Shown one piece after another: positions 11,891 to 33,533 of a stretch of DNA of 40,550 nucleotides. Below the pieces are notes generated by a model. The model did not search any database, was not told the DNA's origin, and saw only the letters and a list, made by a program, of their open reading frames with translations. Origin of the DNA: Bacteroidota bacterium. GTDB lineage: Bacteria; Bacteroidota; Ignavibacteria; UBA10030. The stretch lies in the NCBI GenBank assembly GCA_016928255.1, contig JAFGLB010000181.1, positions 1-40,550 on the forward strand. The letters are read 5' to 3'. Position 1 is the stretch's first letter. Every line of letters starts with the position of its first letter. The position numbers and the translations under genes are program-made.

Positions 11891-11945
11891 TATTGACAAA
11901 ATCAATATAAGGCATATAGGATTTTAATAAAGGTATAAATTGATA

Positions 11946-14900
11946 ATGAAAAAAATACTTATACAAAAATATATTTCAAATATCTTTAAATGTTTATTGC
12001 CGATAGGAATACTGATATGTGTATTGATCAATCCTGTCTATCCGCAGGAAAAGAATGTAAAGTTCAAGCATTTAAGTATCAACGACGGCTTGTCGCAAAA
12101 CGTGGTTTATTGTATAATGCAGGATAAATACGGAATGATATGGATAGGAACTGATGATGGTTTGAACCGTTATAACGGATATTCTTTCCAGATATTTAAA
12201 AATGTTCCGCGAAACAGCGAATCAATAAGCAACGGAAGCATCAGGGCGATATTTGAGGACAGCAGGGGAAAAATGTGGATTGGCACCAGGAGAGGTATGA
12301 ATCTGTTCGATAGGAAAAGCAATAAATTCACAAGGCTGCCCAAATGGTCGGATTTTATAGTAGTCTCTATTGCAGAAGATAAAAAAAATAATATATGGAT
12401 TGGTACTAATGTCGGACTATATAAATACGATTTGATAAGTGACAGTGTTACTGTATTTAGTCCCGATAATACATCCAGAAATATTGTAAGCCGAATGATC
12501 AACGGACCATTGAATGAAGTATTTGTCGACAGCAGGAACTATTTGTGGATATGTTCAACGGATGGCCTTCATTTATATGATAGCGACAATAACTCCTTTA
12601 TCAATTATTACCATGATGAAAATATTTCTAAAAGTATTGCAAGCAATGATGTACGGACAATACTGGAGGATAAAGCGGGAAGAATATGGGTAGCGACGTC
12701 AGACGGCCTGGATTTATTTGAAAATGCGCATGAACACCCGCTTGATGGGAAATTTATTCATCATAAAAATGATATAAACGATACTCGAAGTATATCGAAA
12801 GGCACGGTTCTTTCTCTTTTAGAAGATGATAAAAACAATTTATGGATAGGTGTTGAGAACGGAGGTGTTAACGTGCTTAATCTTAATACCTATACAAATA
12901 ATAATTCTGAATTTGTCCATTATGAAAGCGATCTAAAGCGTAAAACGGCTCTTAATAATAACTCGATTTATTCGATTTATCAGGATAGACAGGGCATTAT
13001 ATGGATCGGAACCTGCGGCGGAGGCCTTAATATACTGAATCCTGGTTCGGATAATTTTATCCATATTAAGGGTGAGCTCGGCAGCGATAATTCATTAAGT
13101 AATAATCAGGTAAATGTTATGCTGGAGGAAGATAAATTTATCTGGATAGGCACGGAAGGCGGATTGAATCGATACGATAAAACAAACGGCACATTCAAGC
13201 ATTATGTTCATGATAATTTTAATAGAAATAGTATAGGTTCTAATGCAGTATGGGCGCTTTGTAAAGACAAAAGAGGAAATTTATGGGTAGGAACATGGGC
13301 AGGCGGTCTTAACAGGTATGATTACAAGACCGAAAAGTTTGAGCGTTATTATAAAAATCCCCAAGATACGACTAGTATCGGCAGTAATAATATATTTTCC
13401 ATATGTGAAGACAGTAAAGGAAATCTCTGGATAGGTACTATGGGCGGAGGATTAAATAAATTTATCAGCAGAAATAAAACATTTAAAAGGTATAACGTAA
13501 ATAATTCGCCGATAAATACGAACTATGTGCCTTCAATTATTGAAACAAAAAACGGGGATTTATGGCTCGCGAATGAAACATCGTTTATATATTTTAGTCC
13601 TGACAGGGAAGAATTTAAAACATATTTACATTCCGAAACGGACAGTACGAGCCTGAGCAGCAATAAAGCGATAGCAATTTATGAGGACAGTAAAGAGAAC
13701 ATCTGGATGGGTACAGATGCCGGACTTAACCTGTTTAATAAATCGACTAAAAAATTTAAGTGTTATCAAATAGAAGACGGATTGCCTGATAACTCTATTA
13801 ATAGTATACTTGAAGATAACAATGGAAATCTCTGGTTGGCTACAAATAAAGGCCTGTCAAAATTTATTAATGCTGTAAATCTGCCTGATAAACCTGAATT
13901 CACGAATTATGTAGACGCAGACGGTATGCAGGGCAATCAGTTCGGACCAAGGTCATGCTTAAATGGATCGGATGGAATGCTTTATTTTGGAGGCGCGAAC
14001 GGATATAATGTTTTTAATCCGGATCGTTTATCGGATAACACATTTATCCCGCCTGTTGTAATAACAGGATTTTATATATTCAACCAGCCGGAAAGTATCG
14101 GAGACCTGGGATTTAACATGGAGTCGGGAAGCAGCGAAAATCTGGTATTGTCCTACAGACAATCTGTTATTTCGTTTGATTTCGCCGCACTGAATTATAT
14201 ATCACCTTTGAGGAATCAGTATGCATACAAGATGGAAGGATTCGATAAAGAGTGGAATTATGTCGGGACTAAACATTCAGCAACATACACAAATCTAGAT
14301 CCTGGTGAATATGTTTTTCGAGTAAAGGGATCAAATAACGACGGTGTGTGGAATGAAAAAGGTATATCGGTACCTATTGTAATCACTCCTCCATTCTGGA
14401 AGACATGGTTATTCCGGATATTGGTTATAGCGATAGGCATTATTTCCATTGTAATGTTCTATAAATACCGCACATATGCAATAAGAAAGCGTAATAAGGA
14501 ACTGGAAAAGAATATTGAAGAACGTACGCGGGAATTGGCTGACAAGAAAAATCTGCTGCAGACAGTAATAGATATGGTGCCGGATCCGATATATGTGAAA
14601 GACAAGGAACACAAATATATTTTAAATAACCGTGTGCATATAGAATCATTAGGTTTAAAAACACAGGAAGACCTGATAGGGAAATCGGATGCGGACTTTT
14701 TTAAACCTGACCAGGTGAATGAAGCACGCGAGGATGAGCGTACGATTATGGAGACGGGAACGCCTGTAATCAATAAAGAAGAGAAGGGTGCTGATCCGTT
14801 GTCGGGAATGGAAAGCTGGGTGTTGACATCGAAGGTACAGTTTAAAAACGACCGAAAAGAATTATTAGGCATAGTTGGTATCAGCCGTCTTATAACAGAG

Positions 14901-15158
14901 CGCAAACGTGCAGAAGAGGAGCGTGAACGTCTGATATCTGAACTTCAGGAAGCACTGGCGGATATAAAAATGTTGAGCGGATTGGTGCCGATATGTGCAA
15001 ATTGCAAAAAAATCCGGGATGACCAGGGATACTGGACTCAAATTGAATCGTATATACAGGACAGATCAAATGCGAAGTTCAGCCATAGTATTTGTCCGGA
15101 TTGCGCAAAAAAAATATATCCACAATATAATCTTGATAATATTTCAAAAAAGGAATAA
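11946..15158 (+). CDS. Propeller sensor A: 14 Reg_prop repeats, Y_Y_Y, membrane helix, one PAS, Cys4-His tail
   Basis: A 1070-residue inner-membrane receptor with a large periplasmic part. A signal peptide covers about residues 1-34. Fourteen repeats of the form D..G.lWIGT..GLNry follow, enough for two seven-bladed propellers as in known hybrid two-component sensors. Next are a Y_Y_Y domain (about 745-815, ending in TNLDPGEYVFRVKGSNNDG), a membrane helix (about 820-840), a PAS domain (about 858-985), a signalling helix, and the tail with Cys1017, Cys1020, His1047, Cys1050 and Cys1053. The expected kinase, receiver and AraC domain are absent. A TTG at 11940 is an alternative start, closer to AAAGG at 11930-11933. 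Such sensors usually bind glycan fragments; the ligand here is unknown. Confidence 0.88.
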   Translation: MKKILIQKYISNIFKCLLPIGILICVLINPVYPQEKNVKFKHLSINDGLSQNVVYCIMQDKYGMIWIGTDDGLNRYNGYSFQIFKNVPRNSESISNGSIRAIFEDSRGKMWIGTRRGMNLFDRKSNKFTRLPKWSDFIVVSIAEDKKNNIWIGTNVGLYKYDLISDSVTVFSPDNTSRNIVSRMINGPLNEVFVDSRNYLWICSTDGLHLYDSDNNSFINYYHDENISKSIASNDVRTILEDKAGRIWVATSDGLDLFENAHEHPLDGKFIHHKNDINDTRSISKGTVLSLLEDDKNNLWIGVENGGVNVLNLNTYTNNNSEFVHYESDLKRKTALNNNSIYSIYQDRQGIIWIGTCGGGLNILNPGSDNFIHIKGELGSDNSLSNNQVNVMLEEDKFIWIGTEGGLNRYDKTNGTFKHYVHDNFNRNSIGSNAVWALCKDKRGNLWVGTWAGGLNRYDYKTEKFERYYKNPQDTTSIGSNNIFSICEDSKGNLWIGTMGGGLNKFISRNKTFKRYNVNNSPINTNYVPSIIETKNGDLWLANETSFIYFSPDREEFKTYLHSETDSTSLSSNKAIAIYEDSKENIWMGTDAGLNLFNKSTKKFKCYQIEDGLPDNSINSILEDNNGNLWLATNKGLSKFINAVNLPDKPEFTNYVDADGMQGNQFGPRSCLNGSDGMLYFGGANGYNVFNPDRLSDNTFIPPVVITGFYIFNQPESIGDLGFNMESGSSENLVLSYRQSVISFDFAALNYISPLRNQYAYKMEGFDKEWNYVGTKHSATYTNLDPGEYVFRVKGSNNDGVWNEKGISVPIVITPPFWKTWLFRILVIAIGIISIVMFYKYRTYAIRKRNKELEKNIEERTRELADKKNLLQTVIDMVPDPIYVKDKEHKYILNNRVHIESLGLKTQEDLIGKSDADFFKPDQVNEAREDERTIMETGTPVINKEEKGADPLSGMESWVLTSKVQFKNDRKELLGIVGISRLITERKRAEEERERLISELQEALADIKMLSGLVPICANCKKIRDDQGYWTQIESYIQDRSNAKFSHSICPDCAKKIYPQYNLDNISKKE

Positions 15159-15299
15159 AGATTTGTTGCTCCGAATAAAGAATCATTTTCTCAGAGAAAA
15201 TTGTTTATACAAAAATATATATGAAGTATTGAAAATATATTATTTGTGCCTTGGCAGATATACGAAGAATAATACTAATTGATAAGTTAGGTCTGCGAA
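15159..15299. other. Spacer between propeller genes A and B
   Basis: 141 AT-rich bases. A 7-bp hairpin ATTTTCT/AGAAAAT (15185-15201, loop CAG) follows the stop of gene A by 26 bases but has no T tract, so any termination would be weak. No clear promoter or ribosome site was found before the ATG of gene B at 15300. Confidence 0.4.
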
Positions 15300-18200
15300 A
15301 TGAAAAATAAATCTATTTATTATATTCTAATTTTATCTTTTCTAATCTTTAAAGCAGAAATGCATTCACAGGAAAAGATAAAATTTGAACATATAACAGA
15401 TAAAGACGGGTTACCTTCGAATGCAATAACAAGCATATGCCAGGATACAACAGGTTTTTTGTGGTTTGGTACTTATAGCGGACTGGTAAGATATGATGGA
15501 AACAATTTTAAAGTCTATCAAAGTGATCCCAAGAGTTCCGACAGTATTAGTCATAGTTTTGTTAGATGTTTATTGGTAGATAAAAATGGCACTCTCTGGG
15601 CAGGCACCTGGGGAGGCGGCCTGAATATGTATAACGATAAAAAAGATGCTTTTGTATCCTTTCAGCATGATTCTAAAGATCCAAATACTATAAGCAACAA
15701 TTTGATAAACGCAGTCAGTCAAGATCAAGACGGAAACATTTGGATAGCTACCTGGGGAGGTGGACTTAATAAAATTGAATATCAGGCGGTTGACAAGCTT
15801 GGTGAAACAGACGGGAATAATTTAAAGAATAAAATTAAGTTTATACATTTCCAGAATGATTCGACAAATCAAAACAGCCTGCCCGGTGATAAAGTTAATT
15901 CAATTTATGAAGACAAAAATGGTAAGCTATGGATTGCTACAAAGTTCGGTGCCAGTAAGTATGACACGCGTAAAAATGAATTTGTTAATTTTAGGCATTC
16001 TTCGAATGATTTTTACAGCTTAAGTAGTAATAATGTGACATCAATATGTGAGGATAAAGACGGAATTATATGGTTAGGAACATGGGATGAGGGACTTAAT
16101 AAACTTGATCAAATAAGTGGTAAAATATTCAGATACAGATCTAATAAAACGAAAGATTCAGGAATTAGCAGTGATAAAGTTATGAAATTATATAAGGATC
16201 GTTCTGATAATCTTTGGATAGGTACATGGGGCGGAGGACTGATGAAGCTTGTTATTTCTCCTGTGAATAAATCGAATAAAACAGCTGGGAAGAAAAAAAA
16301 TGATGAATTTATAACCTTCAGAAGTGATTCGTATGATCCGTACAGTATAAGCGGGATGTCTATTTATTCGATATTTGAAGATAAAACGAATGTTCTATGG
16401 ATTGGAACAAATAACAACGGTCTGAATAAAATTGATAAAAGACGGATGCAGTTTACTTATGCAAAAAGCGATCCTTTAAACCCGAGAAGTTTAATTGAAG
16501 AAAGAGTTATCTCAATTTGTGTGGATCGATCCGGTTTGATATGGATTGGCACAAGTACAAACGGAATAAATATATTTGATCCGAAAAAGAAGACCACAAT
16601 AAATTATTTACATAACGCTAAGGATCCTTTTAGTATCAGCGGTAATTATGTAAGAGCGATATACCAGGACAAACTTGGAACAATGTGGATGGGGACTTCA
16701 AGTGGTTTTAATAAATACGATCAGGTAAATAAACGATTTATTAGATACTATTTTAGCTTTCCGAATCCAAGTGATACTCATATAAATGCTATCTGTGAAG
16801 ATAGGCACGGATATTTATGGCTTGGAAGTTATGGCAATGGGCTCGTTAGATATGACCGCAAGAAAAAAGAATTCAAATACTATCGGAATAATCCCAATGA
16901 TACAATGAGTATCAGCGATAATATTTTATGGGCAATTTATGAAGATCGAAAAGGTGATCTTTGGATAGGAACTGATAATGGAGGGCTTAATAAATATGAC
17001 AGACAGAATGATAATTTCCATAGATATATGCATAATCCCAACGACAGTACATCTATAAGTTCAAATTTTGTTGAGACAATATTTGAAGACAGTGAAGGAA
17101 TACTATGGGTGGGGACAGGCAAAGGGATTAATAAAATAGCTGAAAATGATGATGGATCTTCGCAATACTCATTTATTGCATACACAACAGAGAACGGATT
17201 GTCTTCAAATTCAATTTCGGCAATTCTGGAAGATGATAAATACAATTTATGGATAAGCAGTATAGCCGGGATTTCAAAATTCAATAAAAATACCTTGAAA
17301 ATTAATAACTACAATGAAAGCAATGGATTACTGGGAAATGAATTTGCTCAGGGTTGTGCGTCGATGAACAAAAAGACAGGCATCATGTATTTTGGAGGAA
17401 CTAATGGATATAACTACTTTCATCCAGACAGCATAAAAGAGAGCATATTTGCTCCGCCGGTTGTTATTGTTGATTTGAAAATATTTAATAAGAGCATACC
17501 GGTTAATAAAGAGATCGATGGTAAGGTAATTCTCAGCAGTTCTATCATTACAACAAAAGAAATAGTACTCTCTTATAAAGAAAATGTTTTATCGTTTAGT
17601 TTTGCAGCTTTACAGTATAATTCACCAAAGAATAATAGTTACGCATATATGATGGAGGGTTTTGATAAAGATTGGAATTATCAAGGTAATAGAAATGAAG
17701 TAACTTACACAAATTTAAATCCCGGTAAATATATTTTCAAGGTCAAGGGATCGAATAATGATGGAGTATGGAATGAAACAGGTGTTTCTCTTCCCATATT
17801 TATTACACCGCCATTTTGGCAAACGTTTTGGTTTATAATTTTATTAGCAATTATTTTCTTAGGCTTGATTATTTGGATAATTAAATGGCGAAGTCAATTA
17901 AGAGAACTGGCAACACAAAAACGGATAGATGCCGTTCTGGCAAAGGAGAGAAATTTATTGAGGACATTAATAGACAACTTGCCGGATATGGTTTATGTAA
18001 AAGATACTAAAAGCCGCAAACTCATCAGCAACTTAGCCGACATAAAAAACATGCGTCTTCAATCAGAAGCTGATGTTATTGGAAAAGATGATTTTGAATT
18101 ATTCACGCGAGAACTGGCAGAAGGTTTTTTAAAAGATGATCAGGCCGTTATTCAAAGCGGCAATCCCGTTATAAATAGAGAAGAGTTTGTCTTTGACGAG

Positions 18201-18926
18201 AACAATCAAAAACGATGGCTTAGTACAACTAAGATACCTTTAAAAGATAACGAACAGATTATTGGATTGGTCGGCATTAGTCGCGACATCACAGAGCGCA
18301 AAATTGCAGAAGAGGCATTGAGACAAAAAACAGCGCTTCTGGAAGCGCAGCTTAACTCATCCATTGATGGAGTTTTAGTGGTTGACAGAGAGGGAAAGAA
18401 GATTCTCCAAAATCAGCGGACGGCGGAACTTTGGAAGATACCGCAAGAGATTGCGGATAATCCCGACGATCGACAACAGGTAGATCATGTGATGAATCTA
18501 ACAAAGAATCCTGAACAGTTTGTTATCCAAGTAAAATACCTTTACAGCCATCCGGATGAAACAAGCAGTGACGAAATCGAACTTAAGGATGGAACCATTC
18601 TTGACCGATATTCGGCTCCAGTTCTAGGAAGTGACGGACAATACTATGGAAGAATCTGGTCGTTCCGCGATATTACCAAACGTAAGCACGCTGAGGAAGA
18701 GCGAGAAAAATTAATATTAGAGTTACAGGATGCACTTGCCGATGTAAAATTACTGAGCGGATTGGTGCCTATATGCGCCAGTTGTAAAAAAATCCGGGAT
18801 GACCAGGGATACTGGACTCAAATTGAATCGTATATACAGGACAGGTCAAATGCGAAGTTCAGTCATAGTATTTGTCCGGAATGTGCTAAAAAACTTTATC
18901 CTAATTATAACATAAAGAAACAATGA
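15300..18926 (+). CDS. Propeller sensor B: 14 Reg_prop repeats, Y_Y_Y, membrane helix, two PAS, Cys4-His tail
   Basis: A 1208-residue membrane receptor. A signal peptide covers about residues 1-23, followed by 14 propeller repeats, a Y_Y_Y domain (about 770-838), a membrane helix (about 843-862), PAS domains at about 880-1000 and 1010-1125, a signalling helix (KLILELQDALADVKLLSGL) and the tail with Cys1159, Cys1162, His1189, Cys1192 and Cys1195. Its propeller is the most divergent of the four paralogues: the order and spacing of repeats differ from A, C and D. Yet its tail is almost identical to those of A and C at the DNA level, and its second PAS closely matches the third PAS of C. This suggests exchange of C-terminal modules. 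No enzymatic output domain is present. Confidence 0.88.
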   Translation: MKNKSIYYILILSFLIFKAEMHSQEKIKFEHITDKDGLPSNAITSICQDTTGFLWFGTYSGLVRYDGNNFKVYQSDPKSSDSISHSFVRCLLVDKNGTLWAGTWGGGLNMYNDKKDAFVSFQHDSKDPNTISNNLINAVSQDQDGNIWIATWGGGLNKIEYQAVDKLGETDGNNLKNKIKFIHFQNDSTNQNSLPGDKVNSIYEDKNGKLWIATKFGASKYDTRKNEFVNFRHSSNDFYSLSSNNVTSICEDKDGIIWLGTWDEGLNKLDQISGKIFRYRSNKTKDSGISSDKVMKLYKDRSDNLWIGTWGGGLMKLVISPVNKSNKTAGKKKNDEFITFRSDSYDPYSISGMSIYSIFEDKTNVLWIGTNNNGLNKIDKRRMQFTYAKSDPLNPRSLIEERVISICVDRSGLIWIGTSTNGINIFDPKKKTTINYLHNAKDPFSISGNYVRAIYQDKLGTMWMGTSSGFNKYDQVNKRFIRYYFSFPNPSDTHINAICEDRHGYLWLGSYGNGLVRYDRKKKEFKYYRNNPNDTMSISDNILWAIYEDRKGDLWIGTDNGGLNKYDRQNDNFHRYMHNPNDSTSISSNFVETIFEDSEGILWVGTGKGINKIAENDDGSSQYSFIAYTTENGLSSNSISAILEDDKYNLWISSIAGISKFNKNTLKINNYNESNGLLGNEFAQGCASMNKKTGIMYFGGTNGYNYFHPDSIKESIFAPPVVIVDLKIFNKSIPVNKEIDGKVILSSSIITTKEIVLSYKENVLSFSFAALQYNSPKNNSYAYMMEGFDKDWNYQGNRNEVTYTNLNPGKYIFKVKGSNNDGVWNETGVSLPIFITPPFWQTFWFIILLAIIFLGLIIWIIKWRSQLRELATQKRIDAVLAKERNLLRTLIDNLPDMVYVKDTKSRKLISNLADIKNMRLQSEADVIGKDDFELFTRELAEGFLKDDQAVIQSGNPVINREEFVFDENNQKRWLSTTKIPLKDNEQIIGLVGISRDITERKIAEEALRQKTALLEAQLNSSIDGVLVVDREGKKILQNQRTAELWKIPQEIADNPDDRQQVDHVMNLTKNPEQFVIQVKYLYSHPDETSSDEIELKDGTILDRYSAPVLGSDGQYYGRIWSFRDITKRKHAEEEREKLILELQDALADVKLLSGLVPICASCKKIRDDQGYWTQIESYIQDRSNAKFSHSICPECAKKLYPNYNIKKQ

Positions 18927-19043
18927 ATAATATGTATACAACATAAATTAAATGAAAACGCTGACTAGATATAGTTATGAACTAAAACTGTAATTTATTA
19001 GATTTTAGACACAAAATTAAGCAATGAGATGGTCAGATAATAC

Positions 19044-19210
19044 TGAAATAATTTCAATGTCTATCAGAGCGATCCAAAGAATACCAATAATATCAGTCAT
19101 AATTATATCAGATCATTCCTTGTCGATAGGATGTGCAATCTCTGGATAATCATATGGAGGAGTATTACAAGTAAACATGATACAGAAAACATCAATCCAA
19201 CATCTGACTT
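19044..19210 (+). pseudogene. Decayed fragment of a fifth propeller gene
   Basis: Within the 303-base gap between genes B and C (18927-19229), bases from 19047 translate as NNFNVYQSDPKNTNNISHNY and continue as IRSFLVDR. This matches residues of gene B around 15505-15595 (NNFKVYQSDP, then ISHSFVRCLLVDK). A TGA stop precedes the match at 19044. After 19131 a frameshift and divergence set in, although NLW and a later KHDTENINP-like stretch can still be aligned. DNA identity to gene B is evident by eye. It is a relic of a lost or partly deleted paralogue. The rest of the gap (18927-19043) holds nothing recognisable. Confidence 0.75.
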
Positions 19211-19229
19211 TAATACAAATTGACTTTCT

Positions 19230-22200
19230 ATGAAAAAAGTAATCTTTTTGGTCGTACTTAACATCCACTTTATTACACTTCAGACGAATTACGTTTTAGC
19301 ACAACCTAAAGATATACGGTTCAAACATTTGACCGTCAATGATGGACTTTCATACGGCGGGGTGATTACTATTACGCAGGATAAATACGGGTTTATCTGG
19401 ATCGGTACAGATGACGGTTTGAATAGATATGATGGCAACAGCTTCCAGATTTATAAAAATGACAGGCGAAATATAAATTCGATAAGAAGCGGCACGGTAT
19501 CGAAGATTTACGAGGATAGCAGGGGTGTCTTTTGGATAGGCACTGCAAATGGTGTGGATATTTATGACAGACAAAATGATAGGTTTATCAGGGATCCCAG
19601 ATTTTCAAATCAAAAAATTGCATCTATAGTGGAAGATGTAGATGGGAGCCTCTGGATAGTATCGACTTTCAATATCTACCATCTTGATGTTAAGAATGAC
19701 AGTGTTGAAATATATTCACAAAATGATATCACAGGAGGCAGAACCCGCACTGAAGAAACAAACAGAGAAATGATTATAAGCAGGAGGGGGGAGGTGTGGA
19801 TAGGTTCTTCTAGTGGCATACACATTTATGATAAAAAAAGGAAATTATTCATTCAGGTTCTTCATGACAATAATAAACCTAATAGTTTACTCAGTAATAA
19901 TGTCCGTTCATTGTTAGAGGATAATGCAGGAAGAATATGGATCGGCACCGATGCAGGTTTGGATGTAATTGATAATTTTGATAAAAATCCAGTTGATTAT
20001 ACTTTTTATCATTTTAAAAACAGCAATGATCCAAGAAGCATTACTGGAGGAACAGTTCGGACATTATTAGAGGATGATAAGCAGAATTTATGGATAGGAA
20101 CAACGAACAGTCTGGATCTTCTTGACCTGAAAACATTTAAGAAAGGAATTAACAGCTTTATACATTATAAGAACGATCCAGGCAAACGAACAAGCCTTAA
20201 TAATAATTCCATCTATTCTCTTTTCCAGGATAACCAGAAAAACATCTGGATCGGTACATACAGCAATGGTATAAATATTATAAGTTCAATCCCTGAGAAA
20301 TTCGATTTATTTATGAGTGAACCTGGCTTTAAAAATACCTTGAGCAACAATCAGGTTAATTGCTTCTTTGAAGACGGCGACATTTTATGGATAGGTACAG
20401 AGGGGGGATTGAATAGGTACAATAAAAAAGATGATACATTTAAGCACTATATTCACGATCCGTTAAACAGAAAAGCATTAAGTTCGAACAACATTTTGAG
20501 TATTTGTAAAGACCGATATGGAAGTCTCTGGATAGGAACATGGGGAGGGGGGTTAAATAGGTTTGATTATGGCACAGAGACGTTTGAGTATTATTACAAT
20601 GATCCTAATGACACCAATAGCATAAGCAGTAATGATATATTTTCAGTAATTGAAGATAAAGACGGTAATTTATGGATTGGTACACTAGGCGGCGGTCTTA
20701 ATATGTTTGATAGGACAAAAAAAAGATTTGTTAGACTAAACACTCAGAATTCTGGTATTTATTCTAACTTTGTATTAGAAATTAAAGAATCAAAAAACGG
20801 TGATCTATGGCTAACCAATTATACAGCAGCTGTTCGATTCGATAAAAAGAAAGGAAGTTATGAGTGCTTTGTGCATTCCGATAGTGACAGTGGCAGTATA
20901 TCCAGCAATAGAATTGTATGTATCTTTGAAGATAGTAATGGAAATATCTGGATAGGTACGAATGCAGGACTTAATCTATGGAATAAAACGACGGGGAAAT
21001 TTACTTGTTATCAGAAAGCAGATGGATTGTCAGACAATTATATCAACAGCATTCTCGAAGATAATGATGGAAATCTGTGGATGGGAACGAATAATGGCTT
21101 ATCAAAATTTTTAAATGCCGTAAATTTACCTGAGAAGCCGAAATTCAAGAATTACACTTACGAAGATGGATTACAAGGCGTCGTCTTTGCAAAGCGTTCA
21201 TACCTGAAAGGTAAAAATGGAATTATGTATTTTGGCGGCACAAACGGGTTCAATGCGTTTGATCCGGGAAAAATTATGGAAAACACATACATTCCTCCAA
21301 TTGTTATTACAGGCTTTGAAGTATTTAATAAACCGGTTAGCATCGGAGAAAGGGGATTAGGAAAAAACTGGTTTGCCGATGAGCCGCTGGTTCTTTCATA
21401 CAAACAATCTATGTTTTCGATTAGCTTTGCAGCATTGAATTACATTTCTTCAAAAAGAAATCAATATGCATATAAACTTGAGGGATTCGATCAAGATTGG
21501 AATTATGTCGGTACAAGAAATACTGCAACTTATACAAATTTAGATCCAGGCAAATATTTTTTTCGAGTTAAAGGATCCAATAACGATGGTGTTTGGAATG
21601 AAATTGGTGTTTCCCTACCAATAGTAATAAAGCCGCCTTTTTGGGAGACGTTATGGTTCAGATTGATACTGCTTGCTGTTTTAACAGTTGTTGTATACTG
21701 GATTTATAAGTGGCGTATGCAAACAAGAGAATTCGCGGAACAAAAGCGTATGGATGCAGTTTTAACAAAGGAGCACAATCTTCTTCGTACATTAATCGAT
21801 CTAATACCCGATTATATCTATCTCAAGGACACCGAAAGCCGCTTCATTCTCGCAAATAAAGCGCTCCTGCAAAGCTTTGGGAAAGAAAACATGGATGAAA
21901 TCTATGGGAAGACCGATTTCGACTTTCACCCTTTAGAAAATGCCCGCGTTTATTTTGCCGATGAGCAGGAAATTATCCGTTCGGGGCAGATGCTGCTTAG
22001 TAAGGAAGAGCCTGTGGTTGAAGCTACGGGCCAGCGGAAATGGAACATATCCACAAAAATACCTTTCAAAGATCTCCAGGGAAGGATCGTAGGCCTAGTA
22101 GGCATTGGCCGCGATATTACTGAACGTAAACTAACCGAAGAGGCGTTGCGCAAAAGCAAAGCTCAATTGAATAATGCTTTGAAGATTGCCAATCTGGGTT

Positions 22201-23198
22201 ATTGGGAATTCGACAATGCAACCCGTCTTTTCATATTTAATGATCAATTTTACAATCTTTTTCACACAACCGCCGAAAAGGAAGGGGGCTATTCGATGTC
22301 TCCTGCTCAATATATTCGGCGCTTTGTTAATTCTGATGATGTACATATCGTTGATGATATTATTCAACGAGGCGTTGAATCTACTGATCTAATAAAGACT
22401 GAAGCACAATTAGAACACCGCATTATATACGCTGATGGTGGTACTGGATATTTCTCAGTTCGCATTTCTATCGTTAGAGACGAGAACAGCCGCACAATCA
22501 AGGTGTACGGCGTTAATCAAGATATCACAGAGCGCAAACTGGCTGAAGAAGCGTTAAGCCAAAAAACGGCACTCCTTGAAGCCCAACTCAATTCTTCAAT
22601 CGATGGAGTTTTGGTGGTCGACAAACAGGGGAAGAAAATCCTACAGAATCAGCGGACTGTTGAACTTTGGAAGATCCCGCAAGAGATTGCGGATAACCCA
22701 GATGATCAGATGCAGGTAGCTCACGTTATGCACGCAACCAAGGATCCGGATCAATTCGTCAGCAAAGTTAAATACCTTTATAGCCATCCTGATGAAACCA
22801 GTCGGGATGAAATCGAACTAAATGATGGAACGGTTCTTGATCGATATTCAGCCCCAGTAATAGGCAGTGACGGACGATACCATGGGAGGATCTGGTCATT
22901 CCGCGACATCACTGAAGGTAAACGAGCTGAAAAGGAGCGTGAAAAATTAATAGGAGAACTTCAGGATGCACTTGCAGATGTAAAATTACTGAGCGGATTG
23001 GTGCCGATATGTGCAAATTGCAAAAAAATCCGTGATGACCAGGGATACTGGACCCAAATTGAATCGTATATACAGGACAGGTCGAATGCGAAGTTCAGTC
23101 ATAGTATTTGTCCGGAATGTGCTAAAAAGTTATACCCGAATTACAATACAGACAAAATGGTAAAAAAGAATAACGATCCTGGCGAGGAAAATAAATAA
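19230..23198 (+). CDS. Propeller sensor C: 14 Reg_prop repeats, Y_Y_Y, membrane helix, three PAS, Cys4-His tail
   Basis: The largest paralogue, 1322 residues. A signal peptide covers about residues 1-24; 14 propeller repeats follow in the same order as in A and D; then a Y_Y_Y domain (about 735-803), a membrane helix (about 807-826), PAS domains at about 845-970, 975-1105 and 1110-1225, a signalling helix, and the tail with Cys1261, Cys1264, His1291, Cys1294 and Cys1297. The middle PAS (LKIANLGYWEF...) is not present in the other paralogues. A short basic/acidic extension follows the tail. The ATG at 19230 begins a good signal peptide, but no strong ribosome site is visible. No kinase or DNA-binding domain is present. 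The next gene begins 32 bases later. Confidence 0.88.
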   Translation: MKKVIFLVVLNIHFITLQTNYVLAQPKDIRFKHLTVNDGLSYGGVITITQDKYGFIWIGTDDGLNRYDGNSFQIYKNDRRNINSIRSGTVSKIYEDSRGVFWIGTANGVDIYDRQNDRFIRDPRFSNQKIASIVEDVDGSLWIVSTFNIYHLDVKNDSVEIYSQNDITGGRTRTEETNREMIISRRGEVWIGSSSGIHIYDKKRKLFIQVLHDNNKPNSLLSNNVRSLLEDNAGRIWIGTDAGLDVIDNFDKNPVDYTFYHFKNSNDPRSITGGTVRTLLEDDKQNLWIGTTNSLDLLDLKTFKKGINSFIHYKNDPGKRTSLNNNSIYSLFQDNQKNIWIGTYSNGINIISSIPEKFDLFMSEPGFKNTLSNNQVNCFFEDGDILWIGTEGGLNRYNKKDDTFKHYIHDPLNRKALSSNNILSICKDRYGSLWIGTWGGGLNRFDYGTETFEYYYNDPNDTNSISSNDIFSVIEDKDGNLWIGTLGGGLNMFDRTKKRFVRLNTQNSGIYSNFVLEIKESKNGDLWLTNYTAAVRFDKKKGSYECFVHSDSDSGSISSNRIVCIFEDSNGNIWIGTNAGLNLWNKTTGKFTCYQKADGLSDNYINSILEDNDGNLWMGTNNGLSKFLNAVNLPEKPKFKNYTYEDGLQGVVFAKRSYLKGKNGIMYFGGTNGFNAFDPGKIMENTYIPPIVITGFEVFNKPVSIGERGLGKNWFADEPLVLSYKQSMFSISFAALNYISSKRNQYAYKLEGFDQDWNYVGTRNTATYTNLDPGKYFFRVKGSNNDGVWNEIGVSLPIVIKPPFWETLWFRLILLAVLTVVVYWIYKWRMQTREFAEQKRMDAVLTKEHNLLRTLIDLIPDYIYLKDTESRFILANKALLQSFGKENMDEIYGKTDFDFHPLENARVYFADEQEIIRSGQMLLSKEEPVVEATGQRKWNISTKIPFKDLQGRIVGLVGIGRDITERKLTEEALRKSKAQLNNALKIANLGYWEFDNATRLFIFNDQFYNLFHTTAEKEGGYSMSPAQYIRRFVNSDDVHIVDDIIQRGVESTDLIKTEAQLEHRIIYADGGTGYFSVRISIVRDENSRTIKVYGVNQDITERKLAEEALSQKTALLEAQLNSSIDGVLVVDKQGKKILQNQRTVELWKIPQEIADNPDDQMQVAHVMHATKDPDQFVSKVKYLYSHPDETSRDEIELNDGTVLDRYSAPVIGSDGRYHGRIWSFRDITEGKRAEKEREKLIGELQDALADVKLLSGLVPICANCKKIRDDQGYWTQIESYIQDRSNAKFSHSICPECAKKLYPNYNTDKMVKKNNDPGEENK

Positions 23199-23230
23199 TT
23201 ACAATCAAAGAGTATTCAGTTTAATTAGAA

Positions 23231-26002
23231 GTGGAAAAAATAAGATCATCTATGATGAGCAGGATTAGTTTAATATTATCAGCATATATTTTGATTCCAA
23301 TATTTACGTACTGCGTTAATGCCCAGCCGAAGCACCTGCAATTCAGACAGATTACGACAGATCATGGACTCTCGAACAGCTGGGTACATACTGTTATGCA
23401 GGATAAATATGGTTTTATTTGGATAGGTACGGATGACGGTTTAAATCGTTATGACGGATATGATTTCCGTATATATAAATACAACATGAACGATGCATAT
23501 TCCATCAGCAACAGCAATGTCATAGCCATACTGGAGGACAGACAGGGAAATTTATGGTTTGGAACAAGGGAGGGGCTTAATCTTTATGACAGAGAAAACG
23601 AAAGGTTTATACGCCATCCAAAATTGTCGCAAGAAGAGATATTTTCAATCAAGGAAGATATGGACAGTAACCTTTGGATGGCCGGAACAAGATATTTGTT
23701 CCGCCTGGATTTGAAGAATGACAGCCTGTATACATATCATCAGGATATTATGCCGCAGGATGGGATTATTGTAAGCGGAGGAGGGAACAGGAAAATAATT
23801 ATCGACGGAAGTAATTCTGTTTGGATCGCCTCAAATTACGGTCTGTTTTTATATAATAGGACCAAGGATTCGTTGACAAGTTACTTCCATGACAGCAAGG
23901 ATACTTACAGCATCAGCAGTAACGATATATATTCGATTTACGAGGATAAGTCGGGAAGAATATGGATCGGTACATCCGCCGGATTGGATTTGTTTTTGAA
24001 TTCAAGTGTGTACCCTCAAAAAGGGACATTCGTACATTATAAAAATAATATAAACGATAAAAAAAGTATATCAAAAGGTGCGGTTCTTTCACTTTTAGAA
24101 GATAGTGACAGGAATTTATGGATAGGCATTGAGAACGGCGGCCTGGATATAATGAATCTTGATGGTTTTAAACCGGGTAACAGTAATTTCGTTCATTATA
24201 GAAACGAGCCGGGCAGATCGGGGAGTCTGAGTCATAATTCCATTTATTCTCTTTTTCAGGACAGGCAGGGCAGTATTTGGATCGGCACGTTTGGCAATGG
24301 TTTAAATATGGTGAATCCGGCGGGAGAAAAATTTATTCATATAAAAAGCGAAATAGGAGTAAAAAATTCCTTGAACAATAATCAGGTACATGCTTTTTAT
24401 GAAGAGAATGATTACCTGTGGATAGGAACCGATGGGGGTCTGAACCGTTATGATAAGAAGAATGGCACATATAATCATTATGTTCATGATCCTTTAGATA
24501 ATCGAAGCATCGGCTCGAATGCAGTATGGTGTATCTTTAAAGACAAAAGCGGAATGCTTTGGGTCGGGACATGGTTCGGAGGCCTGAATAGATTTGATCA
24601 TAGGACCGGGACATTCGAACATTTCTATTATAATCCTGAAGACACCAGCAGCATCGGCAGCAACAATATATTTTCCATTTTTGAAGATAGTGATCAAAAT
24701 CTCTGGATCGGAACTATGGGAGGCGGTTTGAATCTTTTAGACAGGAAAAATAAAGTATTTGTCAGATATAACACATTAAACTCGAACATATATTCTGATT
24801 ATATTCAGGATATAATCGAATCAGACGACGGGTATTTATGGATTGCGAACGTAGGCGCTTTTTGCTGTTTCGACAAACAAAATAAAACGTTTGAAACATT
24901 TATGCATTCAAAAAACGACAGTACCAGCCTGAGCAGCAATAGGATGAGATCAATATTGAAAGACAGCAAGGGTAATTTGTGGATGGGTACAAACAACGGA
25001 TTGAATCTTTTTAATAAATCTACAAGAAGATTCAAACACTACAGGACAAAAGACGGACTGGCGAATAATTCAATCAACAGCATTCAGGAAGATAAATACG
25101 GGAACCTCTGGATAGGAACGAACGGCGGATTATCGACGTTCGCTAATGCGGTAAATCTTCCGGAAAAACCCAGGTTCAGAAGTTTTACAAGTGAAGACGG
25201 ATTGCAGGGCAACGAATTCGGCAGGCGTTCGGCTTATAGAAATGCGAATGGGACGCTGTATTTTGGAGGCCCGAACGGGTTTAATATAATTGATCCGGAT
25301 AAAGTAACGGAAAACAAATTTATTCCTCCGGTTGTAATTTCGGGTTTTCAGATTTTCAATAAACCTGTGGCCATAGGCATCAGGGGATTGAAAAACAACG
25401 AGGAATGCAGCAATGACCTGATACTATCATACAAACAATCGGTATTCTCAATTGATTACTCTGCGCTTAATTATATCGCGCCGTTAAAAAACCAGTATGC
25501 ATATATAATGGAAGGATTTGACAGAGATTGGAATTATGCAGGAACCAAACACAGTGTAACTTATACCAATCTGGACCCAGGAAAATATATTTTTAGAGTC
25601 AAGGGATCTAACAACGACGGTGTATGGAATGAAGAAGGAACATTTTTGTCTATTGTGATTACTCCGCCTTTCTGGCGTACAAAATGGTTTTACGGTTTAA
25701 TATTTCTTTTTACAATAAGCGCTGCGCTGGGATTGTACAGGTGGCGCGTCTTGAGGCTGTTGAAACATGAAAAAGAGCTGAATATCCGCATACAGGAAGC
25801 ATTGGCAAAAAACAGAATACTCAGCGGGCTTCTGCCGATTTGTTCTAATTGTAAAAAAATCAGGAATGATAAAGGATATTGGGATCAATTGGAGAAATAT
25901 ATTCAGACACATTCTGAAGCCCAGTTTACGCATGGAATTTGTCCGGAGTGTGCAAAGAAACTTTATCCTGATTATGACTTGAACGAAGAGAAAAATTCCT
26001 GA
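23231..26002 (+). CDS. Propeller sensor D: 14 Reg_prop repeats, Y_Y_Y, membrane helix, Cys4-His tail, no PAS
   Basis: The minimal paralogue, 923 residues. A signal peptide ends near residue 32. Fourteen propeller repeats, a Y_Y_Y domain (about 742-812) and a membrane helix (about 817-838) are followed directly by a helix of about 30 residues (LNIRIQEALAKNRILSGLLP) and the tail with Cys871, Cys874, His901, Cys904 and Cys907. It shows that the tail can be joined to the receptor without any PAS domain. The tail DNA differs clearly from that of A-C and its HSEAQFTHGICPEC part is closer to that of the five-PAS protein. The GTG at 23231 is used here; ATGs at 23252 and 23255 also fit a signal peptide. 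A terminator follows at 26061. Confidence 0.87.
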   Translation: MEKIRSSMMSRISLILSAYILIPIFTYCVNAQPKHLQFRQITTDHGLSNSWVHTVMQDKYGFIWIGTDDGLNRYDGYDFRIYKYNMNDAYSISNSNVIAILEDRQGNLWFGTREGLNLYDRENERFIRHPKLSQEEIFSIKEDMDSNLWMAGTRYLFRLDLKNDSLYTYHQDIMPQDGIIVSGGGNRKIIIDGSNSVWIASNYGLFLYNRTKDSLTSYFHDSKDTYSISSNDIYSIYEDKSGRIWIGTSAGLDLFLNSSVYPQKGTFVHYKNNINDKKSISKGAVLSLLEDSDRNLWIGIENGGLDIMNLDGFKPGNSNFVHYRNEPGRSGSLSHNSIYSLFQDRQGSIWIGTFGNGLNMVNPAGEKFIHIKSEIGVKNSLNNNQVHAFYEENDYLWIGTDGGLNRYDKKNGTYNHYVHDPLDNRSIGSNAVWCIFKDKSGMLWVGTWFGGLNRFDHRTGTFEHFYYNPEDTSSIGSNNIFSIFEDSDQNLWIGTMGGGLNLLDRKNKVFVRYNTLNSNIYSDYIQDIIESDDGYLWIANVGAFCCFDKQNKTFETFMHSKNDSTSLSSNRMRSILKDSKGNLWMGTNNGLNLFNKSTRRFKHYRTKDGLANNSINSIQEDKYGNLWIGTNGGLSTFANAVNLPEKPRFRSFTSEDGLQGNEFGRRSAYRNANGTLYFGGPNGFNIIDPDKVTENKFIPPVVISGFQIFNKPVAIGIRGLKNNEECSNDLILSYKQSVFSIDYSALNYIAPLKNQYAYIMEGFDRDWNYAGTKHSVTYTNLDPGKYIFRVKGSNNDGVWNEEGTFLSIVITPPFWRTKWFYGLIFLFTISAALGLYRWRVLRLLKHEKELNIRIQEALAKNRILSGLLPICSNCKKIRNDKGYWDQLEKYIQTHSEAQFTHGICPECAKKLYPDYDLNEEKNS

Positions 26003-26060: not shown

Positions 26061-26087
26061 CCGGGTTTTATAACCGGTGTTTTTTTT
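26061..26087 (+). terminator. Intrinsic terminator of the propeller array
   Basis: A GC-rich stem CCGG...AACCGG (26061-26077, one bulged G, loop TTAT) is followed by eight T at 26080-26087. It lies 59 bases after the stop of propeller gene D and points the same way, so it should end the array transcript. Confidence 0.65.
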
Positions 26088-26141: not shown

Positions 26142-26170
26142 TTGACAAAAACCCCAAGGTTTTGTATGTT
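26142..26170 (+). promoter_or_regulatory. Promoter TTGACA-17-TATGTT of the candidate small RNA
   Basis: TTGACA at 26142-26147 and TATGTT at 26165-26170 are spaced by exactly 17 bases. The same bases also read TTTG and TAtgTTgC, similar to the Bacteroidota promoter form. The spacer holds a 6-bp inverted repeat AAAACC/GGTTTT (26148-26163). The promoter lies after the array terminator and no protein gene follows on this strand. Confidence 0.65.
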
Positions 26171-26175
26171 GCAGT

Positions 26176-26246
26176 GTGTTGTCTCCCAGACAACACAAAA
26201 TAGCCTCCCTAACCCCTGGCGTCTGGTAGTGCGTCGGGGGTTTTTT
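26176..26246 (+). ncRNA. Candidate small RNA of about 70 nt, two hairpins and a C-rich linker
   Basis: A probable start near 26176 follows the promoter at 26142-26170. The transcript would open with a perfect 10-bp hairpin, TGTGTTGTCT/AGACAACACA (26175-26197, loop CCC), then a single-stranded linker with CCTCCCT (26204-26210), then the terminator hairpin at 26211-26242 and a T tract. The linker is complementary to purine-rich ribosome sites (AGGGAGG), a feature of several small regulatory RNAs. No open frame of useful length lies inside. I do not recognise it as a known RNA family. Confidence 0.6.
26211..26246 (+). terminator. Strong intrinsic terminator of the candidate small RNA
   Basis: AACCCCTGGCGT (26211-26222) pairs with GCGTCGGGGGTT (26231-26242) in a continuous 12-bp stem with three G-U pairs and an 8-base loop, followed by T to 26246. 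The reverse strand lacks a T tract after the stem, so it works only on the plus strand and cannot serve the rluE-like gene that converges from the other side. Confidence 0.75.
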
Positions 26247-26308
26247 ATTATCGGTATGTCGTCATGGAAAAAGCGAAAAGCAGTATAATGAAAGAGCCGT
26301 TGAAGTGA

Positions 26309-26893
26309 TCAACAAAGACAGAGTGTACTGTACAATTTTTCTATTTCGTGCCGGGTAAGTTTACGGTATTTCCCCGGTTGCAGTCCGTCGAGTGTCAGGA
26401 ATGCTATTGAAGTGCGCACAAGTCTTAACGTAGGATGTCCGACTGATGCAGTCATTTTTCGTACCTGACGGTTGCGCCCTTCGCGAAGTTTTATTTCAAT
26501 CCATGCCGTCGGGACATCCTTTCTAAATCTTATCGGAACTGAGCGTTCAGGGAATGAGGGATCAAGATCATATTTACGTACGAAAGCCGGTTTTGTACGC
26601 CTTTTGCCGATCAATACTCCGTCCCGGAGGCGTAACAGAGCATCATCGTCCGGAATTCCTTCTACCTGAACGGAATAAGTTCTTTCATGCCCGAATTCCG
26701 GATCCATAAGTCTGTGTTTTACGGCATTATCGTTTGTAAGCAGCAATAGTCCTTCACTGTCGGCATCGAGTCTTCCAGCGGCATATATGTCTTTTGGAAA
26801 AGGGCCGAAATCGCATAGAGCTTTATAGTTGTTTTCCCGGGTAAACTGGGAAAGAACGCCAAACGGTTTATAGAATAATATATAAGATTTCAC
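26309..26893 (-). CDS. rluE: RluE-type 23S rRNA pseudouridine synthase
   Basis: A 194-residue RsuA/RluB/RluE-family enzyme that isomerises a uridine of large-subunit rRNA. It begins directly with the catalytic domain and has no S4 domain, which fits RluE rather than RluB or RsuA. The catalytic motif AGRLDADSEGLLLLTND carries Asp43; the KPFGVLSQF motif (about 9-17) and the late REGRNRQVRKM motif (about 138-148) are also present. The start is GTG with no clear ribosome site. It lies 86 bases downstream of clpC on the same strand, but a terminator between them suggests that it depends on read-through or on its own promoter. Confidence 0.9.
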   Translation of the reverse strand: MKSYILFYKPFGVLSQFTRENNYKALCDFGPFPKDIYAAGRLDADSEGLLLLTNDNAVKHRLMDPEFGHERTYSVQVEGIPDDDALLRLRDGVLIGKRRTKPAFVRKYDLDPSFPERSVPIRFRKDVPTAWIEIKLREGRNRQVRKMTASVGHPTLRLVRTSIAFLTLDGLQPGKYRKLTRHEIEKLYSTLCLC

Positions 26894-26979: not shown

Positions 26980-29487
26980 TTATTTTGTATCAGCAATTTC
27001 TTCCCCGTATTCCTTCAATTGATCTCCTTCGATATCATTGGAAGCATCTACGAAGAAAATCTCTTCTGTTTTCTTATTAAACTTTACACGGACCATGCTG
27101 CCCTGGGTATATGTCCCTTTCAGAATCTCTTCAGCCAGCGGATCCTCGATGTACTTCATGACGGCCCTTCTCAGAGGGCGCGCGCCGAAGGCAGGATCGT
27201 AACCTTTGTCGGCGAGAAAATCTTTTACTTCCTGTGTAAGTTCGATGGATATGCCCATCGTTTTTATGCGGCTGAAGAGATCTTTTGCCGCTATATCGAT
27301 GATCTTGTAAATATGAGAGCGTTCAAGCTGATGGAAAATCAATGTATCATCGACTCTATTAAGAAATTCAGGATTAAAAACCCTCTTCATTGCGTCTTCA
27401 ATACTGGATTTCATCGCCTTGTATTTATCTTCCTGCGTATTTGTACTGAAACCGAGTCCGCCCGTTACTTTAATATCGCGGGATCCAAGGTTTGAAGTCA
27501 TAATTAAAATTGTATTCTTGAAATCGACGCGGCGGCCCAGGCTGTCGGTTAAAAGACCGTCATCAAGAACCTGCAGAAGGATATTGAATACATCCGGATG
27601 CGCTTTTTCAATTTCATCCAGAAGAACAACGGAATACGGCTTTCGACGGACTTTTTCTGTCAACTGTCCGCCTTCTTCATATCCGACATAGCCGGGGGGA
27701 GCACCAACGAGCCGGGAGACTGCAAATTTCTCCATAAATTCGCTCATGTCAATTCTTACCAGAGCTTCATCAGAATCGAAGAGATAGCGTGCAAGTGCTT
27801 TTGCCATCTCGGTTTTTCCGACGCCTGTTGGGCCGAGGAAGATAAATGATCCGATAGGACGTTTGGGGTCCTTTAATCCTGCACGGGCGCGCCTGATTGC
27901 CTTTGTAAGTTTCGTAATTGCTTCTTCCTGCCCGACGACCATTTCTTCCAGCGCTTCCTCCATTTTCAGCAGTTTTTCAGATTCGCTTTGTGCTACTTTC
28001 TGCACTGGAATATTGGTCATCATCGAAACGACAGCTGCACAGTCTTCTTCTGTAACGTCGTAAATGGTGTCATGAGCTTTAAGTTCCCATTCACGTTTAG
28101 CAAACTCCAGGTCGTTCAGCAGTTTCTTTTCAAGATCGCGCAGGCGTGCCGCTTCTTCGAAATTCTGGTTCTTTACCACCTGGTTTTTTGACTGGCGGAT
28201 TTTTTCAATTCCGTCTTCAAGCTGCAGAATTTCTTTAGGGACTTTAATATTTGCCAGGTGCACCCTTGCTCCTGCTTCGTCAATTACATCTATCGCTTTA
28301 TCCGGCAGATAGCGATCGGTTATGTATCTGTCACTCAGGCGGACTGCTGCATCGACTGCTTTCTCGCTGTACAGGACGCCATGATGTTCTTCGTATTTAT
28401 GTTTAATATTCTGAAGAATTTTTGTTGTTTCATCTATTGTAGTGGGATCTACCATAATTTTCTGGAATCGGCGGTCAAGTGCTCCGTCTTTTTCGATGTA
28501 TTGCCTGTATTCGTCAAGAGTCGTTGCACCGATGCATTGCAGATCCCCGCGGGCCAAAGCCGGCTTGAACATATTTGAAGCGTCAAGCGAACCGCTGGCT
28601 CCGCCGGCACCGACTATGGTATGAAGCTCATCGATAAACAGAATAACGTCTTTTGCTTTCTCAAGTTCATTCATTACCGCCTTCATACGCTCTTCGAATT
28701 GGCCTCTGTATTTTGTTCCGGCGACCAGAGCTGCTAAATCCAGCGTAATAACCCGTTTGTCATGAAGTACACGGGATACTTTCTTCTGAACGATCCGCAG
28801 TGCTAATCCTTCTGCAATTGCGGATTTGCCCACTCCGGGTTCACCGATAAGAACGGGATTATTTTTCTTGCGCCTGCTCAACACTTGTGCAACGCGCTCG
28901 ATTTCCTTTTCGCGCCCTACAATCGGATCGAGTTTATCTTCAAGCGCCATTTTGGTAAGATCTCTGCCGAAGTTGTCGAGCACAGGTGTTTTTGAACGGT
29001 CCTGTTTCTTTTCTGCAAGAGAATGCGGTTGTCCGGGAGGGGATGAGGGCTTGCCCGAGACAATATTGTCCAGTTCATTACGAACAACGTCATAATGTAT
29101 ATTATATTGATGCATTATCTGAGCGGCAATGTTGTCATCGTCTCTTAGAAGCGAAAGCAGCAGGTGCTCAGTGCCGATAACGTCAGATTTGTAAAGTTTT
29201 GCTTCGAGATATGTAATTTTCAGGACTTTTTCGGCCTGTTTGGTCAGGGGAATATTGCCGATAGTAAGAGTACCGCCTGAAGTACGAACAGTATCTTCAA
29301 CTGATTTCTTTAATTTATAGAGATCCACTCCCAGATTGCGGAGTATTTTAACTGCAATTCCTTCACCTTCCCTGATAATTCCAAGGAGGAGATGTTCGGT
29401 ACCGATATAGTCATGACCAAGCCTTAATGCCTCTTCGCGGCTTAGTCTAATAACATCCTGTACTCTATTTGAAAAATTACCTTCCAT
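26980..29487 (-). CDS. clpC: ATP-dependent Clp protease ATP-binding subunit ClpC
   Basis: An 835-residue AAA+ unfoldase that feeds proteins to ClpP. Two Clp_N repeats cover residues about 1-145, each with GTEHLLLxxxR; the first AAA module has Walker A GEPGVGKS at 215-222 and Walker [10 protein letters not shown]; a UVR-like middle domain (about 420-460, [14 protein letters not shown]) marks ClpC rather than ClpA or ClpB; the second AAA module has Walker A GPTGVGKT at 552-559 and [11 protein letters not shown]; a D2-small domain ends the chain. The length is normal. AAGGAA precedes the ATG. A promoter is visible at 29585-29613 on the same strand. No clpP or McsB-type adaptor gene is present in the window. 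Confidence 0.96.
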
Positions 29488-33002: not shown

Positions 33003-33533
33003 GTGAAAAAAATCATTCTTACAGCTGTTATTTTAATGCTTGCTGTTTCAGTCAGCTCAGCGCAGCAAAATGCAAAAATTGCCTTCGTAAATTCAGAGAC
33101 TATCCTGCGCGAACTTCCTGAAGCCCAGGCGCTTAGAAAAGAACTAGAATCGACAATCAAAGTCTGGCAGGACGAACTTGAAAAAATGAGCAAAGAGCTT
33201 CAGGAAGGAATAGAAGATTACCAGAAAAAGCAGGCTATGCTTGACCCGAAAGCAAAAGCCGATAAGGAAAAAAGTCTTCAGGATCTACAGCAGAAGGCCC
33301 GCGATTACCAGTACCAGAAATTCGACTCGCGCGACGGTGAAGCCGTAAAGTTAAGAGAGAAAAAATTTGCCCCCATCCAGGATCGTGTTATGAAAGCGAT
33401 TGAAAAAGTGGCAAAAGAAGGCAAATTCAATTTTGTTTTTGACAAACTGGATGTTACATCAAACCTGCTGTATGCAGATTCTAAATACGACCTTACTTAT
33501 AAGGTGATAGACAGACTAAAGACCGGAAACTAA
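33003..33533 (+). CDS. OmpH/Skp-family periplasmic chaperone, copy 1
   Basis: A 176-residue periplasmic chaperone for unfolded outer-membrane proteins. A signal peptide ends near residue 20 (VSVSSAQQ), followed by the OmpH start motif KIAFVNSETILRELPEAQ, a charged coiled coil (about 40-125) and a C-terminal strand region (FNFVFDKLDVTSNLLYAD). The start is GTG with AGAGG about 6 bases upstream. It lies 46 bases after bamA and 74 bases before a second copy. It has the size and layout of Skp, though sequence identity with the E. coli protein is low, as is usual for this group. Confidence 0.9.
   Translation: MKKIILTAVILMLAVSVSSAQQNAKIAFVNSETILRELPEAQALRKELESTIKVWQDELEKMSKELQEGIEDYQKKQAMLDPKAKADKEKSLQDLQQKARDYQYQKFDSRDGEAVKLREKKFAPIQDRVMKAIEKVAKEGKFNFVFDKLDVTSNLLYADSKYDLTYKVIDRLKTGN

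Follow-up and report, generated by a model that had tools for sequence, protein, structure and literature searches.

A predicted small RNA gene family of Ignavibacteriota with two promoter classes and a linker complementary to ribosome-binding sites

Background

In the Firmicutes, the redox-controlled small RNAs (sRNAs) RoxS/RsaE pair with ribosome sites through a C-rich motif. The element described here, at positions 26142-26246 of a 40,550-nucleotide stretch of Ignavibacteria DNA (contig JAFGLB010000181.1, the whole of which is called the window), has a C-rich segment of its own and appears to encode an sRNA of a conserved family; it differs from RoxS/RsaE in its proposed regulator and in having no Rfam match. 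By analogy, the best reading is that this RNA works like MicA/RybB, FoxI/FoxJ and LhrC but is of separate origin, being a member of none of their sequence families.

MicA and RybB of enterobacteria are the noncoding arm of an extracytoplasmic function (ECF) sigma stress response that lowers outer-membrane protein synthesis (PMC1804206); the present family has no Rfam match to them, its host lacks Hfq and the proposed sigma factor is SigH/SigR-like rather than RpoE. FoxI and FoxJ, the sigmaE-dependent sRNAs of Fusobacterium nucleatum, offer the same combination of a promoter motif common to an ECF sigma gene and the sRNA, a C-rich pairing region and envelope-protein targets (both proposed for the present family), and a host without Hfq and, in their case, also without ProQ (PMC11005410). 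They belong to another phylum and sigma type, whereas the present family is known from sequence alone, has a linker complementary to the Shine-Dalgarno (SD)-spacer-AUG unit and includes paralogues behind sigma70-type promoters. The LhrC1-5 sRNAs of Listeria are likewise multicopy, with redundant CU-rich sites, a link to envelope stress, a cell-wall-associated target and no requirement for Hfq (PMC4132741), but are governed by the two-component system LisRK, and the present family has no Rfam match here either.

The proposed regulator resembles the SigH/SigR-RsrA thiol-stress system of Actinobacteria in its GGAAC-N17-18-cGTT promoter, homologous sigma factor and HxxxCxxC anti-sigma factor (PMC10012870, PMC4960319), although the present sigma factor falls below the TIGR02947 cut-off. 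Our literature search found no comparable sRNA arm for that system, and no described regulatory sRNA in Ignavibacteriota/Ignavibacteria, a phylum beside Bacteroidota and Chlorobiota.

The best explanation of our results, to which we assign a probability of roughly 0.62, is as follows. The locus would encode an sRNA about 72-75 nt long that acts in trans by base pairing. The ancestral form of the gene (class B), as a rule present once per genome and next to gltA and rluE-clpC, would depend for its transcription on a SigH/SigR-type (ECF12-like) ECF sigma factor, itself held by a zinc-type anti-sigma factor, such that thiol or envelope stress leads to production of the sRNA. Its linker, the complement of SD-spacer-AUG, would then pair with the start regions of envelope-protein mRNAs and, without help from Hfq, keep ribosomes from loading. 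Duplication in the window's genus would have placed the gene behind housekeeping-type promoters (class A), and the window copy would be one such duplicate, now at half of the ancestral site.

Results and discussion

A compact putative transcription unit with conserved structure

All parts of the element lie on the + strand, where an earlier note, made from the letters of the window, had placed them. A class A, sigma70-like promoter (26142-26170) consists of TTGACA (26142-26147) and TATGTT (26165-26170) with a 17-nt spacer, and is conserved at a fixed distance in 16 class A copies. It is followed by a 5' hairpin with a perfect 10-bp stem and CCC loop (UCUCCCAGA, 26175-26197), whose C-rich loop reads CUCCCCG in the majority of paralogues; the transcript probably begins at about 26175-26178. 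The proposed pairing site is the linker AAATAGCCTCCCTA (26198-26211), unpaired in the predicted fold, in which the single-stranded segment between hairpin and terminator is ATAGCCTCCCTA; its CCTCCCT (26204-26210) is invariant in alignments A1 and A4. The terminator (26211-26248), supported by fold and alignments, has 12 pairs, a T tract and the apex GGCGTYTGGTAGTGCGTC, conserved in the genus as GGCGUYUGGUAGUGCGUC.

Matches to a TTGACA-type promoter occur in the region at chance level (30 found, 32.6 expected), and the case therefore rests on comparison and conservation. The predicted folding energy of the transcript-like stretch is -31.9 kcal/mol; shuffled versions give -16.7 +/- 2.8 (z -5.4). 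Across 14 class A sequences 94.6% of cells are paired, both-sided changes occur at 10 of the 20 pairs, and double-change cells number 34 as opposed to 10.6 in shuffles; when the partner is displaced by one column, pairing falls to about 30%. Compensatory changes are present in both the 5' hairpin and the terminator. Comparison of six species at two orthologous sites gives identities of mostly 74-97% for the sRNA and about 15-60% for its flanks. The check that the earlier note had proposed, conservation of stems and promoter in relatives, has thus been run and came out in its favour. Its claim that the element has no open frame is also borne out, because linker length differs by one base among copies and this breaks every reading frame. 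That 26142-26246 is an intergenic sRNA gene with its own promoter and intrinsic terminator is, for a case argued from sequence, close to certain.

If the element were simply a second terminator or an attenuator, giving rise to no transcript of its own, its place after a propeller gene's weak terminator would be as expected. At 26061-26087 (+), outside the sRNA, where the earlier note saw that gene's terminator, a hairpin does exist, but it is only a weak CCGG/CCGG stem of -5.8 kcal/mol. The paralogues adjoin unrelated genes and have their own promoter at constant spacing, which makes this alternative highly improbable.

Distribution and copy number

A BLAST search of the stretch against its own genome returned two paralogues, on contigs C44 (79%) and C164 (93% over the core). 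Of 32 genomes from the taxonomic family, 27 gave matches to a covariance model of the core (R1), and 25 were accepted after the weakest had been read; those in G024 and G026 (L072, L073) were dropped. About 359 further genomes of the class yielded 13 matches (E 0.0008-0.01), not far above the chance rate given a roughly calibrated model; those that were read (L077-L079) resemble ordinary terminators, and members outside the taxonomic family were rejected. A pattern scan of named genomes located close relatives in Ignavibacteriae metagenome-assembled genomes of fen samples (phylum Ignavibacteriota). The window has no Rfam match at the gathering threshold and nothing credible at permissive ones, the best sub-threshold match being PyrR (19.2 bits, 54 needed). 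We appear to be dealing with an undescribed sRNA family spread across one taxonomic family of Ignavibacteriota.

Congeners have 2-12 copies (three in the window genome, 12 in G004, the maximum, nine in G003 and seven in G009), and genomes of other genera mostly one or two. Numbers as high as 12 per genome, with some copies degenerate and several clustered (G004 C74, G003 C1), are what might be expected of a dispersed terminator repeat resembling miniature inverted-repeat transposable elements or repetitive extragenic palindromes, with promoter-like bases by chance. Such an origin is very improbable for the family, in view of the conserved promoter classes, the two-sided stem changes, the retention of the locus across species and genera and the many single-copy genomes. 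The evidence goes most of the way to refuting it for class B and for the class A copy linked to cysK, and it may apply to the most degenerate copies. The clusters, in which several partly degenerate copies lie within a few kilobases (L086, G004:C74:11000-25500; L082, G003:C1:134000-140000), suggest local duplication and decay.

Other arrangements were also seen. L096 (G020:C121, 2043-2229) has two class B copies in tandem, 136 bases apart, the second without an obvious promoter of its own, and in L097 (G028:C138) some 3 kb separate two divergent core copies, whose 5' parts are unusual and which lack the GGAAC-N17-NGTT promoter.

Two promoter classes and a candidate sigma factor

Scored over 47 family copies against shuffled sequences, the promoters fall into two mutually exclusive classes, no copy having both. 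Class A, a TTGACA-type box, 17 bases and TANNNT about 30 bases before the linker, is present in 16 of the 47 (shuffled mean 0.5); it includes the window copy, is multicopy and is found mainly in the window's genus. Class B, GGAAC-N17-NGTT about 45 bases before the linker, is present in 23 (shuffled mean 0.14). Most other genera have this form, and genomes of the window's genus have a single copy of it each; we take it to be ancestral.

The published SigH/SigE consensus of Corynebacterium is GGAAC-N17-18-cGTT (PMC10012870), and the class B motif matches, as read from its bases, the consensus of SigH/SigR-type stress sigma factors. The window genome encodes an ECF sigma factor whose best NCBIfam match is TIGR02947 (SigH_actino), at 177.5 bits against a curated cut-off of 251.55, and so a homologue below membership. 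Orthologues occur in 26 of 32 genomes. At all 19 loci of other genera the sigma gene is followed by one for an HxxxCxxC protein, as for a zinc-type anti-sigma factor, and at 14 of these 19 GGAAC-N17-NGTT lies close upstream of the sigma gene, against 0.09 in shuffled sequence. The promoter motif common to sigma gene and sRNA is that of class B, in other genera only. The related GGAAC-N17-YGTTM occurs 24 times in the window genome (control, 9), upstream of an mrp-type Fe-S carrier gene there and in G003, and in the window genome also before htpX, ferritin-like, NDH-2, flavodiiron and lipoate-ligase genes, names that were assigned by sequence reading.

Control of class B by a stress sigma factor is, on these grounds, quite probable. 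Two points weigh against it: the assignment rests on motif identity, and many ECF factors read GGAAC; and in the window's genus (L194-L199) the sigma gene has neither an adjacent anti-sigma gene nor the upstream motif, so that the circuit may be rewired there. The genus in which the sigma gene stands without these two features is also the one in which the sRNA gained sigma70-type copies.

The linker and its predicted targets

In most other genera (class B) the reverse complement of the linker amounts to a complete ribosome-binding site, AGGGAGG-N5/6-ATG; in the window copy the ATG is missing. Could the reverse strand itself be functional, as the ribosome site (AGGGAGG-N6-ATG) of a short peptide? 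Many copies do present an SD plus ATG when read this way, but promoter and T tract are both on the + strand, the reverse frames share no common length (9 to 87 codons), and the window copy lacks the ATG at that position; we find the idea hardly credible.

For target prediction, AGGGAGG plus three further matched bases (at least 10) was demanded in two independent genome sets, and real gene starts were kept. Thirteen gene families remained as matched starts in other genera. In 11 of them the protein has a signal peptide or a membrane segment at its N-terminus; among baseline genes the share is 54 of 214 (25%, p 2.6e-5). On a rule-based rerun 11 of 14 matched starts were hydrophobic, one failure being the sRNA's own antisense strand, and so were 12 of 26 other AGGGAGG starts before two duplicates were removed. 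Predicted duplexes between these starts and their cognate sRNAs run to 10-17 contiguous pairs (-19 to -34 kcal/mol), with 17 at a start of G010 (L322), and at one membrane-protein gene the site is retained in three genomes, which represent two genera. As Hfq (PF17209) was found in none of the 32 genomes of the taxonomic family (controls, 5 of 14 positive), the sRNA would not be of the Hfq-dependent kind.

Several results pull the other way. AGGGAGG-N-ATG is near control overall in eight other genera and below it in the window's genus (8 against 21 in the window genome, 16 against 28 in G003), and targets there are therefore unproven. Nor is AGGGAGGYTR-N-ATG commoner than control in a 15-genome set, only the gene class being unusual. 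Gene starts were assigned by simple rules, and part of the signal could stem from some surplus of strong SD sites among secreted genes; 15 of 40 AGGAG starts are hydrophobic, and compared with these the matched starts still differ (p 0.004). Broad targeting of SD sites by the 7-mer was rejected, perfect matches before ATG not being enriched overall.

The suggestion that CCTCCCT pairs with ribosome sites accordingly fares differently by lineage: it gains from the envelope enrichment of matched starts in other genera and meets no excess of AGGGAGG starts in the window's genus. Repression of envelope mRNAs by pairing at the ribosome-binding site is the mechanism that we favour, with reserve, for other genera, and the same proposal is weaker for the window's genus. 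Nearby genes, which the earlier note had offered as possible targets, are not supported as such: no gene in the window has an AGGGAGG site at its start, and OmpH at 33003 (GAGGUUAU, -12.6 kcal/mol) was set aside as a weak candidate not conserved in G004.

In an alternative reading it is a protein or some other RNA that the sRNA contacts through its linker and terminator apex, mRNA pairing being incidental; this would account for the conserved apex, which SD pairing leaves unexplained, and would fit the want of AGGGAGG enrichment in the window's genus. We regard it as unlikely, because envelope genes are enriched among matched starts and the linker mirrors a full ribosome-binding site with AUG at the correct spacing.

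The C-rich loop of the 5' hairpin was ruled out as a universal second pairing site because some genera (G017, G027) have purine-rich loops there. Their class B copies (L055, L054) have the loop GAGGAGA, which could bind the CCUCCCU linker in its own molecule and might so act as a self-masking switch.

The ancestral locus and its division in the window genome

The ancestral site is intact in G005 (L260, G005:C93), where hem genes with a hydrolase and a glycosyltransferase, gltA, the sRNA, an S9 peptidase, rluE, clpC, uppS and bamA follow one another (names from sequence reading and homology to window genes). The sRNA is divergent from gltA in 11 genomes and convergent with rluE in nine besides the window. 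In the window genome the left half, with a class B copy, lies on C164 (L261, G000:C164), and the right half, with the class A copy, lies in the window (26142-26893). The latter holds the convergent rluE/rsuA-type pseudouridine synthase gene (26309-26893, -), which flanks the class B locus elsewhere, and is followed by clpC (26980-29487, -), the second conserved neighbour; both rest on Pfam and synteny. The break falls exactly at the sRNA, which suggests recombination between paralogous copies; a misjoined contig is the alternative. The class A copy on C44 occupies the same site in six species, with an AMP-ligase gene upstream in all six and cysK/cysE downstream in most. On the other side of the window copy, at 11940-26002, several large two-component-propeller sensor genes (Reg_prop/Y_Y_Y/PAS) stand in tandem.

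Conclusions

Beyond what had been noticed in the window, comparison points to a multicopy family with a putatively ancestral stress-sigma promoter and a linker complementary to a whole ribosome-binding site. More tentatively, and with somewhat less than even confidence, we suggest an independently evolved noncoding arm of a SigH/SigR-type redox response in an Hfq-less phylum, in which a complement of the entire ribosome-binding site stops envelope-protein synthesis, and of which later copies behind housekeeping promoters became constitutive in one genus. What is gained is an sRNA family for which a regulator, a pairing site and a list of targets are proposed and can be put to the test with reporters. 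It would add a lineage with a different sigma type to the ECF stress responses whose sRNA arm lowers envelope-protein synthesis, and would do so without Hfq.
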